Under the pieces are notes generated by a model that saw nothing but the letters and a program-made list of their open reading frames with translations, did not search any database and was not told where the DNA came from. DNA of 35,915 bases, from the IMG/VR virus record IMGVR_UViG_3300028388_002359, positions 1-35,915 of that record; one strand, given 5' to 3'. Positions 3,464 through 13,142 of the stretch are shown in pieces. This DNA comes from a virus. Within the stretch, counting starts at the first letter, position 1. Every line of letters begins with the position of its first letter. Made by a program: the position numbers and the translations under genes.

Positions 3464-4552
3464 ATGGCAATTCAAAGATTGGCTGCGGTTCGACCCCAGG
3501 TCAATATCGAAGCTGGGCTGTACACATTTCCTGCTAGTTATTTGGTTTCAGTTATTGTTGCCAATATTTCTCCTTCTTCTACACCTATCCCGCAGGTAGA
3601 CATTTATGTTGTTCCCTCGGGAGCGGAGACCGAAGGGTCTTATGTATACATTGCAAACAATCTAACTGTTGGATTTGGGCAAAGCTATGAAACATTTCGA
3701 TTTGCCGTAAATCCAGGAGACGCGCTGTTTGTTCTTTCTACAGCAGCAAATGTCTCTGTTAGCTTGTACGGAATTGTGCAGGATGATGCAGTTGGTCAAG
3801 GAGATCTTGCCCAGACATTTACAAATAAAGTTATTCGTGGAGTAAACAATACTGTTTACGTCGACAAAGGAATTACAGCCGACCGCAGAGGGGACGCTGA
3901 AGAGGGGTATCTTCGGTACAACACCGACTACAGAGCTCTAGAAGTTCTAACTAACGAGGCTTGGGAGCTTGTCGGAACGGGCACGGGAGACGGAGCTACT
4001 GGACCGACTGGTCCTACTGGTGCCGTGGGGGACACTGGACCCACTGGACCGCAAGGAGACTCTGTTACTGGACCTACTGGTCCTACTGGTCCCTCGGGAG
4101 GCCCCACGGGTCCAACAGGTGCTACTGGACCCACTGGACCTGGCGGCGGGGCAATTGACGTTGCCGACACTACAGATGCAACAACTTTTGTTGGGCTTTA
4201 TGAGGATGCCACTGGAACTATTGGCGGTAAGACTAACTCAGGTATTACATACAACGCCAGTACCGAGACGCTTGCAGTAACAGCAATTGAAAGTGCATCA
4301 ATCAATGCTCCACAAACTCTTACGGGTACGTATACTCTGACCTCCCCAACAACGATCACTTTAGATCCAACAGATGAAGTCATTGCTGATGCACCAATAA
4401 AGCTGGTGAGCAAGACAGTGACAGAACTTGGGTCGCTTACTTCAAGTATCGGAGCAATGGTCTACTGCACTGACGAAACTGATGGCGCAACACTAGCTTT
4501 TTACGATGGTACTGACTGGCGGAGGGTGAGCGACCGAGCGGTGGTCAGCTAG
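3464..4552 (+). CDS. Collagen-like tail fibre protein 1
   Basis: A 362-residue fibre. Residues 1-115 form a globular beta-rich domain that is clearly paralogous to the N-terminus of the second fibre at 6163 (shared YETFRFAV and [IL]ASNLT/IANNLT stretches), probably the attachment domain. Residues 175-229 are Gly-X-Y collagen-type repeats dominated by GPT. Residues 230-362 form a C-terminal tip ending in the common phage-fibre pattern [13 protein letters not shown]...[12 protein letters not shown]. Gly-X-Y repeats trimerise as a collagen-like triple helix in known phage fibres; that this one does is inference. The ATG is preceded by AGGGGG. The stop TAG shares one base with the GTG start of the protease, so translation of the two is probably coupled. 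Confidence 0.8.
3986..4150 (+). repeat. Collagen-like Gly-X-Y (GPT) repeat tract, fibre 1
   Basis: In-frame Gly-X-Y triplets, mostly Gly-Pro-Thr, with near-repeated nine-base units of the type ggt cct act. The codons for the triplets vary (gga/ggt/ggc, ccg/cct/ccc), so the repeat is conserved at protein level more than DNA level. The opposite strand therefore shows a long open frame that is an artefact. Confidence 0.9.
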
Positions 4553-6123
4553 TGCCCGAGTATAAAGAATACACAGTAACCACTTCAGATATATCAAAAA
4601 GTCAAGAAATAGTTTCTGACTTGACTACAGCGATGCCCACCCCTGCGACTATTCCCGACAGGGAAGTACAGATAAAAAACGAGCGCCCCATAAATCAAAG
4701 AAATACTTCTTTCTGGCTTACTGACGAGGAAGCAGAAGTACTTCGTCAGGATCCTCGGGTAGAAGCTGTAGAAAATTTAGATGAGTTTCGCCCACATAAA
4801 AAAGCTTTTCAAGATGGAACATTTGACAAGCTAACTACAGAAACAGGTGAAAAACAAAACTGGGGGCTACTCCGCCACATAAGCGCTACTAATAATTTTG
4901 GCACTTCATCCTCTGATCCTGGAGGAACATATGATTATGTTTTAGATGGAACAGGAGTAGATGTTGTCATTGTAGACAGCGGAATCGAAGTAAACCACCC
5001 TGAATTTGAAGACGCCGAGGGAAACAGTCGAGTTCAGCAAATTAACTGGTACACCGAAAGCGGAGTATCAGGAACTATGCCTGCTGGTTTTTACGCTGAC
5101 TATGACGGGCACGGAACACATGTTGCTGGAACCGTTGCTGGTAAGACTTTTGGCTGGGCTAGAAACGCCAATATTTACTCAATAAAATTAGCTGGTTTGG
5201 AAGGACCAACTGATCCCTTACCAGGACTGTCTGCTTCTGATGCCTTTGATTGCATTCTGGGCTGGCACAACAGCAAAACAAACGGCAATCCCACTGTTGT
5301 TGTAAATAGCTGGGGTTACATAGTTTATTGGGACCAAACAAATGATGAGCTTACCTTCAACGAAGTAACCTACTACCCAGTGACAGGCGGATCATACCGA
5401 GGTTCCGCGCACACAGACACCAACAAAGACCCATCCAAAGGTCTTACTGGCCAGCTTGCGGACACTTCTTTGTATGTTTTTAACTACCCAGTAGCCTCGG
5501 TAAACGCTGATGTTGCTCAGCTAGTCAATGCTGGGATTGTTGTTGTAAACGCTTCGGGCAACGGCAACGTTAAGCATGACGTAAGTGGCGGCGCTGACTA
5601 CGACAACTATGTAACTGCTACTGGTTTTCCAGGATCTAACTTTTATTACCAAAGGGGAGGAGCCCCGCATTGCGGGTCTAATCCAGGGTTTCAAGTCGGT
5701 GCTACTGGAACAAACTTTATTTCTGGTGTTGAGGCAAAGTCTGTTTACAGCGACTCTGGACCAGGGGTAAATGTATATGCTGCTGGGGACCGCATTATGA
5801 GTTCGATGAGCACAACGAATGTAGACGCTTCGAGCTATCAATACAATCTTGACGGCGGCTACAAACAGCAAAGATTGTCTGGAACTTCTATGGCTACTCC
5901 TCAGGTGGCTGGCTTGTGCGCTTTGCTACTTCAAGCTCATAGAGACTGGACACCAACTCAAGTTTTTGACTGGATAACTAAAAACTCAAAAAGTGTCTTG
6001 CACTCTACTGGACTAGACAATGATTATGCCACTACATCTAGTTTGCACGGAGGGCCAAACAGAATGGCCTACTTTCCTATGGTTGGACGCAGACCGTACC
6101 AGCTTGAAGAACAGAGCGTGTAG
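4552..6123 (+). CDS. Subtilisin-family serine protease (peptidase S8)
   Basis: A 523-residue subtilase with an intact catalytic set: Asp142 in VIVDSGIEVNHPEF, His187 in DGHGTHVAGTVAG, oxyanion Asn337 in NASGNGN and Ser446 in GTSMATPQVAG. The first about 80 residues resemble an I9-type propeptide/inhibitor (residues 57-73, TDEEAEVLRQDPRVEAV, is its typical end), so autoprocessing is likely. No signal peptide or membrane segment is visible. The GTG start overlaps the stop of fibre 1 by one base. It lies between two paralogous collagen-like fibre genes, so I infer a virion-associated protease that either processes the fibres or digests host surface protein. It is unlike the usual phage head-maturation proteases (ClpP-type or U35), and capsid genes are on the other strand. 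Family assignment is secure; the biological role is inferred. Confidence 0.93.
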   Translation: MPEYKEYTVTTSDISKSQEIVSDLTTAMPTPATIPDREVQIKNERPINQRNTSFWLTDEEAEVLRQDPRVEAVENLDEFRPHKKAFQDGTFDKLTTETGEKQNWGLLRHISATNNFGTSSSDPGGTYDYVLDGTGVDVVIVDSGIEVNHPEFEDAEGNSRVQQINWYTESGVSGTMPAGFYADYDGHGTHVAGTVAGKTFGWARNANIYSIKLAGLEGPTDPLPGLSASDAFDCILGWHNSKTNGNPTVVVNSWGYIVYWDQTNDELTFNEVTYYPVTGGSYRGSAHTDTNKDPSKGLTGQLADTSLYVFNYPVASVNADVAQLVNAGIVVVNASGNGNVKHDVSGGADYDNYVTATGFPGSNFYYQRGGAPHCGSNPGFQVGATGTNFISGVEAKSVYSDSGPGVNVYAAGDRIMSSMSTTNVDASSYQYNLDGGYKQQRLSGTSMATPQVAGLCALLLQAHRDWTPTQVFDWITKNSKSVLHSTGLDNDYATTSSLHGGPNRMAYFPMVGRRPYQLEEQSV

Positions 6124-6162: not shown

Positions 6163-8325
<2,163 letters not shown>

Positions 8326-8383: not shown

Positions 8384-8962
8384 ATGAACTCTACACCCAA
8401 CTGGTTTAAAAACGACGGCGAAAAAAATTTTAGTGAGCAACTAGCTCATTTATCCGCACGACCGTGTAGGTTACTTCAGATTGGAGCCTACACTGGCGAT
8501 GCTAGTGTTTGGATGTATAACAACATCCTTTACTACTACGAAGACTCCGTCCTCATCGATGTTGATACCTGGGAAGGATCAGACGAACCAGCTCATCACG
8601 AAATGAACTGGTCCTCGGTAGAGACTATTTACGATGCAAAAACTGCTGCAGCTCGAAATTCTAGACAAATAGTCAAGTTCAAGGGAACGAGTGACTGGTT
8701 CTTCAAGAACAACATGCAAGAGTATGACTTTATCTATATTGATGGCGATCACACTGCTCCTTCTGTGATGAAAGACGCTATGAATGCTTTTGATGTCTTA
8801 AAGCCAGGCGGAATAATTGCTTTTGACGACTACCAGTGGTCTGCTGGTCTGGGGACTAACAAGGAGCCCCGAATGGCCATTGACGCTTTCTATGGCATGT
8901 ACATGGAACGAATTGAAGTCTTAGTAAATGACTACCAGTTTTGGGTGAGGAAAAAAGGATGA
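8384..8962 (+). CDS. Class I SAM-dependent methyltransferase
   Basis: A 192-residue protein resembling the Methyltransf_24-type phage methyltransferases. The glycine loop is LLQIGAYTGDAS (residues 30-40), followed by an acidic strand end in LIDVDTWEGSDE, and a DFIYIDGDH motif before the LKPGGIIAFDDY strand, all typical of the fold. Substrate is unknown; relatives in phages are often beside glycosyltransferases and sugar-modifying genes. The start is ATG 8384. The stop overlaps the halogenase start as ATGA, so the two are translationally coupled and probably act together. I see no DNA-methyltransferase motif such as (D/N)PPY, so a small molecule, sugar or protein target is more likely than DNA. 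Confidence 0.8.
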   Translation: MNSTPNWFKNDGEKNFSEQLAHLSARPCRLLQIGAYTGDASVWMYNNILYYYEDSVLIDVDTWEGSDEPAHHEMNWSSVETIYDAKTAAARNSRQIVKFKGTSDWFFKNNMQEYDFIYIDGDHTAPSVMKDAMNAFDVLKPGGIIAFDDYQWSAGLGTNKEPRMAIDAFYGMYMERIEVLVNDYQFWVRKKG

Positions 8963-10536
8963 GCTATAAAATTTTGATCGTTGGCGGTGGCACTGCTGGG
9001 TGGGCTTCAGCCCTATACGCCAGATACAAAATGCCTAGCGCTGAAATTACTTTAGTGGAGTCAGACTCTATTGGAATCCTCGGGGCTGGAGAGGGAACAA
9101 CCCCTGCATTTATTGAGTTTCTAGAGAAAATCGATATTCCTCTTGCCAGACTAATTCAAGAAACCAGCACCACCGTGAAAAACGGAATTAAATTTACCAA
9201 CTGGACTGGACCAGACTCTTCGTACTACCACGGGTTTTATGCGGTAGATGATGTCAGTCTTGGGTCTTTCAATAACTCCCAGTTTATGGCTGGAACAAGT
9301 TTCTTGGCTGGATACAACATTGCAAAGGGTAAAGACTTTTCTGAGGTTAACTACACTCATGCGATAAGTGAAGGCAACAAAGTACCTCTTCAAGTAGCAG
9401 AAGACTATAACGGAGAGATTATTCCTGACCCCATTGCTAAATACTTTTTTACTGCTTACTATGCAAACCACTTTGACGCTGTAGCCTTGGCTGATTTCTT
9501 CAAGAGAATTGCTGTCGAAGAAAGAAACATCACCAGAGTCGAAGGCAAAGTCGTTGATCAAAAGCAAAGCGAGAACGGAGACTTAAAGTCTGTTTTGCTG
9601 GAGTCTGGTGAAGAACTTTCTGCTGATTTCTTCATAGACTGCACAGGATTTGCAAAACGTCTTATCGGAAAGCTTTACAAAGCCAAATGGGTAAGTCACA
9701 AAAAACATCTAACCGTTAACTCTGCTTTACCATTCTTTTTACCCATAGACGAAGATGCTATACCCGCCTACACCGAGTCCACTGCAATGAAATACGGCTG
9801 GATGTGGAAAATTCCACTCCAGCACCGCTACGGCTGCGGATACGTCTTTGACTCCAACTACATAACTCAGGAGCAAGCACGCGAAGAAATTCTCGAGCTA
9901 GTCGGTGATCAGGAGATCGTTTGGCCTAGGGAAGAAGCCTTTAAGTTTGAGCCAGGATATTTTAAAACCAGCTGGGTCAATAATTGTTTGGCTGTCGGGC
10001 TTTCTTCGGGATTTATTGAGCCCCTCGAGGCAACCTCGATCTGGGCTTCTCTTCTTTATCTAGAGCACGCTTTCCTGGACTTGAACGGATTAATTAATAG
10101 GCCACAGAGCTACGTTGACGAGTTCAATGCTAAAGCAGCAAAGATTAATCAAGATATTTTTGAGTTTGTTTACTTCCACTATATGGGCGGAAGAACCGAT
10201 ACACCGTTCTGGGAGCACTACCAAGACGTAGATAAGGCGCCCAAAAGAGTGCAAGACATACTACAAAAATGGTCTGAAAGAGTTCCTTCTTACTGGGACC
10301 ACAAGGATGATCTTTTTGCGATGGAAAGTTGGATTGCCGTTGCCTCGGGTCTAAACAAAATAGACAAAAAGGTCTACAAACAGACCTACGATCTTTGTGA
10401 AGTAACAGAAATTATTGATAACGACTACGAACTTTTTCTTCACGTAAAAGAAGCAACCGTAGATAATTGCACACTGCATGCCGATTTTTTGCGGGATCTA
10501 AAGAAAAACTATGTACCAGTAAAGCAAATTGTTTAG
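8959..10536 (+). CDS. FAD-dependent (tryptophan-type) halogenase
   Basis: 525 residues. The flavin-binding motif is VGGGTAGW (residues 8-15). The signature W-x-W-x-I-P is present as WMWKIP at 281-286. The catalytic lysine, equivalent to Lys79 of PrnA, appears as Lys74 in TTVKNGIKF. The active-site glutamate lies in EPLEATSIW as Glu357, with Ala where PrnA has Ser347. Such enzymes use reduced flavin, oxygen and halide to make hypohalous acid. Tryptophan-type halogenases occur in cyanophages, including the iodinating VirX1. The substrate here cannot be told. I chose ATG 8959 because it gives the ATGA overlap and a GAGG ribosome site nine bases upstream; a TTG at 8941 would add six residues. No flavin reductase gene is in the window, so reduced flavin would come from the host. 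Confidence 0.9.
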   Translation: MSYKILIVGGGTAGWASALYARYKMPSAEITLVESDSIGILGAGEGTTPAFIEFLEKIDIPLARLIQETSTTVKNGIKFTNWTGPDSSYYHGFYAVDDVSLGSFNNSQFMAGTSFLAGYNIAKGKDFSEVNYTHAISEGNKVPLQVAEDYNGEIIPDPIAKYFFTAYYANHFDAVALADFFKRIAVEERNITRVEGKVVDQKQSENGDLKSVLLESGEELSADFFIDCTGFAKRLIGKLYKAKWVSHKKHLTVNSALPFFLPIDEDAIPAYTESTAMKYGWMWKIPLQHRYGCGYVFDSNYITQEQAREEILELVGDQEIVWPREEAFKFEPGYFKTSWVNNCLAVGLSSGFIEPLEATSIWASLLYLEHAFLDLNGLINRPQSYVDEFNAKAAKINQDIFEFVYFHYMGGRTDTPFWEHYQDVDKAPKRVQDILQKWSERVPSYWDHKDDLFAMESWIAVASGLNKIDKKVYKQTYDLCEVTEIIDNDYELFLHVKEATVDNCTLHADFLRDLKKNYVPVKQIV

Positions 10537-10545
10537 GAGTATAAA

Positions 10546-11619
10546 GTGAAAGCAGCAATCTACACAATTGCCCTCAACGAACGACAGTTTGTTGACGAGT
10601 GGTTTGAAGCAGCTAAAGATGCAGACTATCTACTGATTGCAGACACTGGGTCCACCGACGGAACCGTAGAACGAGCCAGAGAGCTTGGTATTAATGTCGT
10701 AGACGTTCGCATATCGCCCTGGAGATTTGACGACGCACGCAATGCAGCACTAGCAGCTCTTCCTATCGATATTGACATGTGCATATCTCTGGATATGGAT
10801 GAAGTCATTACTCCAGGATGGAAAGAGGTTCTTACCGAGGCCTGGGAACGCGGAATCAACCGTCCCCGATACAAGCACGTCTGGTCATTCAACGAAGACG
10901 GGACTCCTGGTCTTGAATTTAGCTACGACCACATCCACGGTCGCAAGGGCTTCCGCTGGCGTCACCCAGTGCACGAGTGCATCTACTCTTACGGCATTGA
11001 AGAGAAGCAAGAGTGGCTTGACGGCATCGAAACACACCACCACCCAGACCCCAGCAAGAGTCGCTCGCAGTACCTGCCTCTCTTGGCAATGTCCGTCAAG
11101 GAAGATCCCTACAATGACCGCAACGCGTTCTACTACGGACGAGAATTGTACTTTTATGGTCGCTACATAGAGGCAGCACAGGAACTTAAGCGCCACCTAG
11201 AGCTTCCTACGGCTTCCTGGGCCCCCGAAAGAGCAGCTTCTATGCGTTTTATCGGGAAATCTCTTCCAGCGGAAGCAGAGCACTGGTTCCAACGAGCAAT
11301 TGCCGAGGCTCCAGGGCGTAGAGAGCCTTTTGTGGACTTAGCCAAGCTATATTACAACCAGCAAAACTGGGCAAAATGCCTTGAAGCCTGCGAAGGAGCT
11401 CTTGAGATCAAAGAAAAGCCCCTTGAGTACCTCTGCGAGGCCGAATCGTGGGGGTACGCTCCCTGGGACTATGCTGCAATTGCTGCCTACAACCTTGGTC
11501 AATATGAAAAAGCAGCCGAGTACGCTAAGAATGCTCTGGAGATTGAACCAGAAAACGAAAGACTAAGGACTAACTTTGTTTTCTGCGATAGAGCGGCAAG
11601 CGAAGCTATTTCTTCTTAG
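10546..11619 (+). CDS. Family 2 glycosyltransferase with C-terminal TPR-like region
   Basis: 357 residues. The N-terminus is a GT-A domain: IYTIALNE at 5-12, LLIADTGSTDGT at 29-40, and the metal-binding DxD as SLDMDE at 81-86. The C-terminal half (about 190-345) contains helical TPR-like repeats, for example AAEYAKNALEIEPENERL. GT2-plus-TPR architecture occurs in protein glycosyltransferases such as the SunS group, and in many phages. I infer transfer of a sugar to a protein or phage product, with the Thr-rich GPT repeats of the neighbouring fibres as one possible acceptor. The start is GTG 10546 with AGGAG six bases upstream, nine bases after the halogenase stop. Its 3' end overlaps the convergent WhiB gene by 14 bases. 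Confidence 0.85.
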   Translation: MKAAIYTIALNERQFVDEWFEAAKDADYLLIADTGSTDGTVERARELGINVVDVRISPWRFDDARNAALAALPIDIDMCISLDMDEVITPGWKEVLTEAWERGINRPRYKHVWSFNEDGTPGLEFSYDHIHGRKGFRWRHPVHECIYSYGIEEKQEWLDGIETHHHPDPSKSRSQYLPLLAMSVKEDPYNDRNAFYYGRELYFYGRYIEAAQELKRHLELPTASWAPERAASMRFIGKSLPAEAEHWFQRAIAEAPGRREPFVDLAKLYYNQQNWAKCLEACEGALEIKEKPLEYLCEAESWGYAPWDYAAIAAYNLGQYEKAAEYAKNALEIEPENERLRTNFVFCDRAASEAISS

Positions 11620-12127
11620 ACTTCTTGGCCTTGCTGGCCTTTTTGGCCTTTTCTCGGAGACGTCTTTCTGTTCTCTCGGTTTTCATTGCTTTGTAGGCGT
11701 GCACAGCATTTACGCTAGTCCTGCTTCGCCACGCAAAACCGCACACTGTACATGTAACTATTTTGGCTGTAGTCCATCTGCCACCGCCAGGCACCTCGAT
11801 AGAGCTCGTTTCAAGTTTGGAAGGTCGAGCGGTGCAGTATGGACAATGAGGAAATCTTCTTCGTCGGGCTTCTTCTCCCTTATAAGAGACAGAGAGCGCC
11901 CTTCGCATCTCAACTTCGTCTCTTCCGCCCCAGATTCCCCAAATCTGTTTGTGCTCTAGAGCCCACTGAAGACATTGCTTCCGCACAGGGCAACTAAAAC
12001 AAATGTGCTTTGCAGCATACTTTTCTTTGGGATTTTTTGAGAAGAACCACTCTATAGCTTTTTCGTTTTCTTTCTGAGCGCACAGAGCTTCTTTTTGCCA
12101 TCGCAAATTACTAGCAGCTACCCACAC
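11606..12127 (-). CDS. WhiB-family protein fused to a zinc ribbon and a lysine-rich tail
   Basis: 173 residues, longer than typical WhiB proteins (about 80-120). The iron-sulphur cluster cysteines are Cys16, Cys43, Cys46 and Cys52 (C-F-S-C-x5-C), followed by the G[VI]WGG turn as GIWGG (64-68) and a basic stretch. After this there is a second motif, C95-x2-C98 and C126-x2-C129, which looks like a zinc ribbon, then a tail rich in Lys/Arg that ends in KKSKKK. WhiB proteins bind a 4Fe-4S cluster and the primary sigma factor to tune transcription. The start is GTG 12127; a downstream TTG at residue 9 is an alternative. It may bind DNA or RNA polymerase of the host. The zinc ribbon and tail are unusual. 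Confidence 0.85.
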   Translation of the reverse strand: MWVAASNLRWQKEALCAQKENEKAIEWFFSKNPKEKYAAKHICFSCPVRKQCLQWALEHKQIWGIWGGRDEVEMRRALSVSYKGEEARRRRFPHCPYCTARPSKLETSSIEVPGGGRWTTAKIVTCTVCGFAWRSRTSVNAVHAYKAMKTERTERRLREKAKKASKAKKSKKK

Positions 12128-12839: not shown

Positions 12840-13142
12840 TTATATAGGAGTAATACCCAGGTTGCGTCTTCTTGCGTGGTCTTTTTGTTTTCTGATGTTC
12901 ACTCTGTCTCGAGGACTTAGCCCTCCCCACATCCCAAATTTTTCGTTTTTCTCTATCGCCCACAGTGCGCATTCTGTTTTGTGCTCGCATTCGTTGCAAA
13001 CTTTTCTTGCGTAAGTGTAGTCTGCTTCTACCATTGCAGATAACTGCGGATCGTCAGGATCTTTTGGAAAAAATAAATGAGTTCCAACCTCTGCGCATAG
13101 AGGGCTTTCAAATTCCCACGGTGGCCTAACTTCATCGCTCAT
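12840..13142 (-). CDS. WhiB-family transcriptional regulator
   Basis: 100 residues, ordinary WhiB length. Cluster cysteines are Cys16, Cys49, Cys52 and Cys58 (CNEC-x5-C), followed by the conserved turn as GMWGG (70-74) and a basic C-terminus (RKQKDHARRR) that could touch DNA. Phage WhiB proteins, such as WhiBTM4 of mycobacteriophage TM4, can act against the host WhiB2 and cause exclusion of other phages; whether this one does is unknown. ATG 13142 has AAAGGAA upstream. It differs in sequence from the WhiB at 11606 outside the core, so the two are not recent duplicates. Confidence 0.92.
   Translation of the reverse strand: MSDEVRPPWEFESPLCAEVGTHLFFPKDPDDPQLSAMVEADYTYARKVCNECEHKTECALWAIEKNEKFGMWGGLSPRDRVNIRKQKDHARRRNLGITPI

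Follow-up and report, generated by a model that had tools for sequence, protein, structure and literature searches.

What does a flavin-dependent halogenase do for a phage, and does the position of its gene tell us on what the enzyme might act? We know of no natural substrate for any phage halogenase. Such genes are widespread, and the one described here lies at a position that points to a concrete candidate substrate, a collagen-like fibre or a glycan. A single scan yielded 242 viral-contig stretches encoding a relative of this halogenase, and halogenases have been reported in 20 of 153 cyanophages (PMC10452541). The gene is carried by a 35,915-base IMG/VR virus record, the whole of which was analysed and is referred to as "the window" in this study. 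Because head-tail connector, tail, DNA polymerase, helicase and fibre genes are also encoded in it, the window belongs to a tailed phage. The region of interest contains the following features.

3464 to 4552, plus strand: smaller collagen-like fibre protein, 362 aa, with 17 triplets and weak PHROG tail-fibre matches
4552 to 6123, plus strand: subtilase-family protease (PF00082, 2.4e-27), between the two collagen-like fibre genes
6163 to 8325, plus strand: collagen-like fibre protein, 720 aa (PF01391 Collagen, 1.9e-21; PHROG tail fibre matches)
8384 to 8962, plus strand: class I SAM-dependent O-methyltransferase, 192 aa (PF13578, 3.3e-15)
8950 to 8962, plus strand: purine-rich, ribosome-binding-like run and ATGA stop/start overlap, by direct reading
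8959 to 10536, plus strand: FAD-dependent halogenase-type gene, ATG start, 525 aa
10546 to 11619, plus strand: GT2 glycosyltransferase with C-terminal TPRs, 357 aa (PF00535, 1.7e-07; TPR matches)
11606 to 12127, minus strand: WhiB-like regulator, convergent with the cassette (PF02467, 2.7e-18)
12840 to 13142, minus strand: second small ORF similar in sequence to the WhiB-like protein of the window

The 720-residue fibre protein contains 87 collagen triplets, 34 of which are GPT, and is the likely acceptor of the tailoring enzymes. The TGA of the methyltransferase gene (8960-8962) overlaps the ATG of the halogenase gene (8959-8961), and as this ATGA overlap is preceded by GAGGAAAAAAGG, the translational coupling of the two genes, proposed earlier from the letters of the DNA, is plausible. 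The WhiB gene named in that sequence-only reading is real as well, given its PF02467 match, and the virus is probably an actinobacteriophage; the same argument from WhiB to an actinobacterial host has been made for the Actinomycetia phage DSL-LC01 (PMC10611076). The scan of the window for promoters and terminators did no better than on shuffled sequence, neither RNA elements nor tRNAs were found near the cassette, and there was no PADLOC match that would suggest a defence role. The ends of the converging glycosyltransferase and WhiB genes overlap by 14 bases (11606-11619), and a subtilase-family protease gene also occurs in another locus, L003.

Is the halogenase gene what it appears to be? 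In a profile search, the 525-residue protein matched positions 1-448 of the 458 in PF04820 (Trp_halogenase) with 350 bits, well above the curated cutoff of 21 (E 2.7e-104), and it matched PHROG 2928, "tryptophan halogenase", with an E-value of 5e-104; such E-values exclude chance. GGGTAGW is present at residues 9-15, Lys74 and Glu357 are in place, WMWKIP occupies residues 281-286, and Ala358 follows the Glu, so that the numbering given in the sequence-only reading was right and all motifs are intact. The catalytic Lys74 is found in all 88 phage relatives and Glu357 in 87 of them. A structure prediction, which that reading had proposed as a check, was made with AlphaFold2 from an alignment of 30 phage and bacterial relatives. 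The model (mean pLDDT 92.4) has the PyrH/PrnA/MibH fold across about 480 residues: VIA-align gave a Z of 42.9 for PyrH (2.1 A over 481 residues), 40.2 for PrnA, 38.0 for the peptide halogenase MibH and 36.7 for VirX1, while CndH and Bmp2, which are more distant halogenases, scored about 25. The nearest solved folds were all of the halogenase type. By profile, motifs and predicted fold, the protein belongs to the variant-A flavin-dependent halogenases (PF04820), which confirms the earlier claim of a phage-encoded, motif-intact gene of this kind. The window therefore carries a real, intact member of the halogenase family, whose chemistry, judged from sequence and model, would be halogenation. 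The gene is under purifying selection in the window clade: its pN is 0.068 and its pS 0.667 in the closest pair (L170/L173), and its pN is about two times or more that of the neighbouring genes.

The characterised enzymes resemble the window protein to different extents. PrnA, PyrH and BrvH share its fold, FAD motif, WxWxIP, Lys and Glu; however, they are only about 28-32% identical to it in structural alignments and have Ser, not Ala, after the Glu. MibH and SrpI share the fold, but MibH is 23% identical and both come from RiPP clusters, not virions. VirX1 (cyanophage Syn10, PDB 6qgm; exactly L084:7986-9578) is likewise a phage-encoded variant-A enzyme with the same fold and the catalytic Lys and Glu, yet it is only 27% identical, reads EPLESTG where the window protein reads EPLEATS, and has no methyltransferase/glycosyltransferase cassette in its annotated neighbourhood. 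In a quick tree including VirX1 and bacterial halogenases, with SH-aLRT support only and no bootstrap, a branch with 100% support separated VirX1, which grouped with PrnA and the bacterial enzymes, from the window protein, and the clade of the window halogenase itself received 100%. Close kinship with VirX1 is therefore not upheld; by sequence, the window halogenase is in a separate phage clade, apart from that of VirX1. We know of no characterised or assayed member of this clade. Ala358 had been singled out as a peculiarity of the protein. This proved to be the norm in the clade: of 88 phage relatives, 85 have Ala, as do about 26% of the bacterial homologues sampled; Ser occupies the position in PrnA, VirX1 and five solved structures (among the matches listed).

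The next question is whether the halogenase belongs with its neighbours. A scan seeded with the glycosyltransferase gave 80 loci, in which the recurring order was collagen-like fibre gene(s), methyltransferase and glycosyltransferase, mostly convergent with WhiB; some of these contigs are near-copies, and the locus counts are not independent events. The halogenase lies between methyltransferase and glycosyltransferase in the window, L002/L167, L168-L173 and L003/L176. In about 20 contigs (most of L191-L213, plus L216), a different halogenase, HAL', follows the glycosyltransferase instead; it is 27-35% identical to the window halogenase and, together with two phage proteins from outside the cassette, forms a distinct clade with 100% support. 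In L004-L007 and L009, the order is halogenase, small membrane-like protein and glycosyltransferase, with no methyltransferase, and many glycosyltransferase loci have neither halogenase. Both halogenases beside one cassette were not seen among the loci examined. On the glycosyltransferase tree, about six changes are needed to account for the presence and position of the halogenase. Of 46 glycosyltransferase loci, 41 have a GPT-collagen ORF no more than 4 kb upstream; among halogenase loci, this holds for 1 of 39 that are T4-like and 1 of 53 that are bacterial.

These results show that: the constant unit is fibre, methyltransferase and GT2/TPR glycosyltransferase, with the halogenase as an optional insertion; the methyltransferase, which had been taken for the halogenase's own partner, accompanies the glycosyltransferase with or without a halogenase, so a dedicated pairing is rejected; and, as the two halogenases form separate clades of the tree, two lineages have joined the same cassette. 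In one phage (G007, 160,704 bases), there are two halogenase genes, C1:51572-52954 and C1:108068-109432; one is HAL' in a fibre cassette, and the other, of the main phage type and accompanied by the small membrane-like protein, lies elsewhere.

A halogenase in a WhiB-bearing phage had been thought unusual, but DSL-LC01 (OQ999401) was reported with both in 2023 (PMC10611076). Its order of collagen fibres, halogenase homologue, GT2 and WhiB resembles that of the window, and its glycosyltransferase is 60% identical to the window's. However, its halogenase homologue (L082:8977-10548) is only 31% identical, with degenerate EPLDFSS and WVSKIP motifs, and has no methyltransferase directly beside it; judging from these residues, it is possibly inactive or repurposed. 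What is new here is the repeatedly assembled fibre-decoration context of a phage halogenase.

The enzymes of the constant unit suggest what is decorated. The glycosyltransferase matched PHROG 13126 (3.9e-116) and, in the PDB, the GT domain of GmaR and TPR proteins. In Clostridioides difficile, SgtA (358 aa, GT-A plus TPR), encoded beside bclA3, adds GlcNAc to Thr in GPT collagen repeats (PMC7157674). The window enzyme has this same architecture, a GT2/GT-A domain with C-terminal TPRs, a similar length and an adjoining GPT collagen-like gene; the likeness described here is one of architecture, and the SgtA/BclA3 system differs in belonging to the spore coat and having no halogenase. The methyltransferase model (pLDDT 88.5) is nearest to the sugar O-methyltransferases MycF, MeT1 and SpnH and to phenolic O-methyltransferases, tied at Z 17-18. 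With the two kinds of fold tied, a methylated glycan on the fibre is possible, not established.

We tentatively favor the notion, at somewhat less than an even chance, that the window gene encodes a complete variant-A halogenase, one that has a tailoring role and is an optional member of a late cassette for virion-fibre modification, in the order GPT collagen-like fibre, O-methyltransferase, halogenase (where present) and SgtA-like GT2/TPR glycosyltransferase. The halogenation chemistry, the halide, the substrate and the presence of the product on the virion are what we infer for such an enzyme. No flavin reductase (PF01613, PF03358) was found in the window, as the earlier reading had stated, or in 10 phage records related to it, which are mostly fragments; in the control, both profiles matched in 13 of 14 genomes. 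Reduced flavin would therefore have to come from the host, as is usual for flavin-dependent halogenases. FADH2 from host flavin reductases would react with O2 to give the FAD-hydroperoxide, which would oxidise the halide to hypohalous acid; this would pass through the tunnel as far as Lys74, and together with Glu357 it would halogenate an electron-rich aromatic, either a Trp or Tyr side chain of the fibre or a glycan on it. Enzymes of this type can act on Trp within peptides, as MibH and SrpI demonstrate (PMC10858898).

In groups A and B (PMC8269204), free tryptophan is bound through the Trp4 motif, which PrnA and PyrH possess; when the C-terminal part of the window protein was read, neither published pattern was found, which places the protein outside the free-tryptophan halogenases of these groups by Trp4. 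VirX1 (group C) likewise lacks the motif. The aromatic-sandwich residues of the Trp2 region, H91 and F93, are kept (H in 79% and F in 94% of the phage clade). Lack of Trp4 with retention of the Trp2 His and Phe would agree with a substrate that is aromatic but is not free Trp. The earlier reading had named fibre peptides among the substrates to try, a choice in keeping with the cassette. Enrichment of Trp or Tyr in the fibre was considered as a signature of the substrate and rejected, since neither Trp/Tyr content nor LYxW...W loops differed between halogenase-bearing and halogenase-free cassettes; this weakens the simplest guess at the substrate. More broadly, some actinobacteriophages might place Cl, Br or I on their own virions, on the collagen-like fibre or a (possibly methylated) glycan, as an exchangeable decoration recruited twice into one cassette, a proposal that we advance as speculative and rather doubtful.

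Alternatively, the enzyme could halogenate small molecules in free form, be they host metabolites of an indole-like or phenolic kind or a signal, its gene being an auxiliary metabolic gene that came to lie beside fibre genes by chance. We consider this conceivable, if on the unlikely side. The family's precedents have free molecules as substrates, many small aromatics are iodinated by VirX1 (review, PMC8407142), H91 and F93 are retained, and the Trp content of the fibre does not track the halogenase. Furthermore, T4-like halogenase relatives have metabolic genes, and no fibre genes, as neighbours; the enzyme family is hence not bound to fibres, and the cassette could be a passive neighbourhood in a variable late region. 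On the other hand, the free-tryptophan motif Trp4 was not seen in the C-terminal region, and two halogenase clades occur at two positions of the same fibre/methyltransferase/glycosyltransferase cassette.

A further alternative, which appears improbable to us, is a flavin enzyme of the same fold that does not halogenate, such as a monooxygenase by which the fibre or glycan is hydroxylated or oxidised. This would be consistent with the prevalence of Ala358 among the phage relatives, as opposed to the Ser of VirX1 and the solved structures listed, with a weak NCBIfam match to the monooxygenase QhpG, far under its cutoff, and with a clade for which no biochemistry is known to us. However, the catalytic Lys and Glu, the GG and the WxWxIP are invariant or almost so, and the nearest solved folds are of the halogenase type, with CndH and Bmp2 much lower. 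Least probable by far is that the gene is carried neutrally, of no benefit to the phage, in a hot spot that separates fibre genes from WhiB, for although presence on the glycosyltransferase tree is patchy and several motif residues have been lost from the homologue in DSL-LC01, the L170/L173 comparison reveals strong purifying selection and the motifs are intact at about 60% identity within the window clade.

For the question of the substrate, the family contains its own natural controls, the same cassette being available with the window-type halogenase, with HAL' and with neither. The phage family could also supply peptide-accepting halogenases for enzyme work.

Several minor observations were made in the course of these comparisons. 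A small protein ("DUF94"; e.g., L004:7524-7814), about 94-120 aa long, has hydrophobic stretches of a membrane-like kind, matches nothing in Pfam or PHROG and lies directly beside the halogenase in 59 of 86 loci, and a scan with this protein found a halogenase at most two genes away in 55 of 77 loci. It is a possible partner of phage halogenases; no match to it was found in the window, L002, L003, L082, L083, L084, L085, L168 or L173. A PHROG 7084 protein (L043:2864-3598) and its relatives recur near phage halogenases in 15 loci. Finally, three contigs from bacterial MAGs (L087, L088 and L089), binned as Gammaproteobacteria or Klebsiella, encode halogenases that share about 40% identity with that of the window and have EPLEATSIW motifs of the phage type; the three are perhaps misbinned phage contigs.
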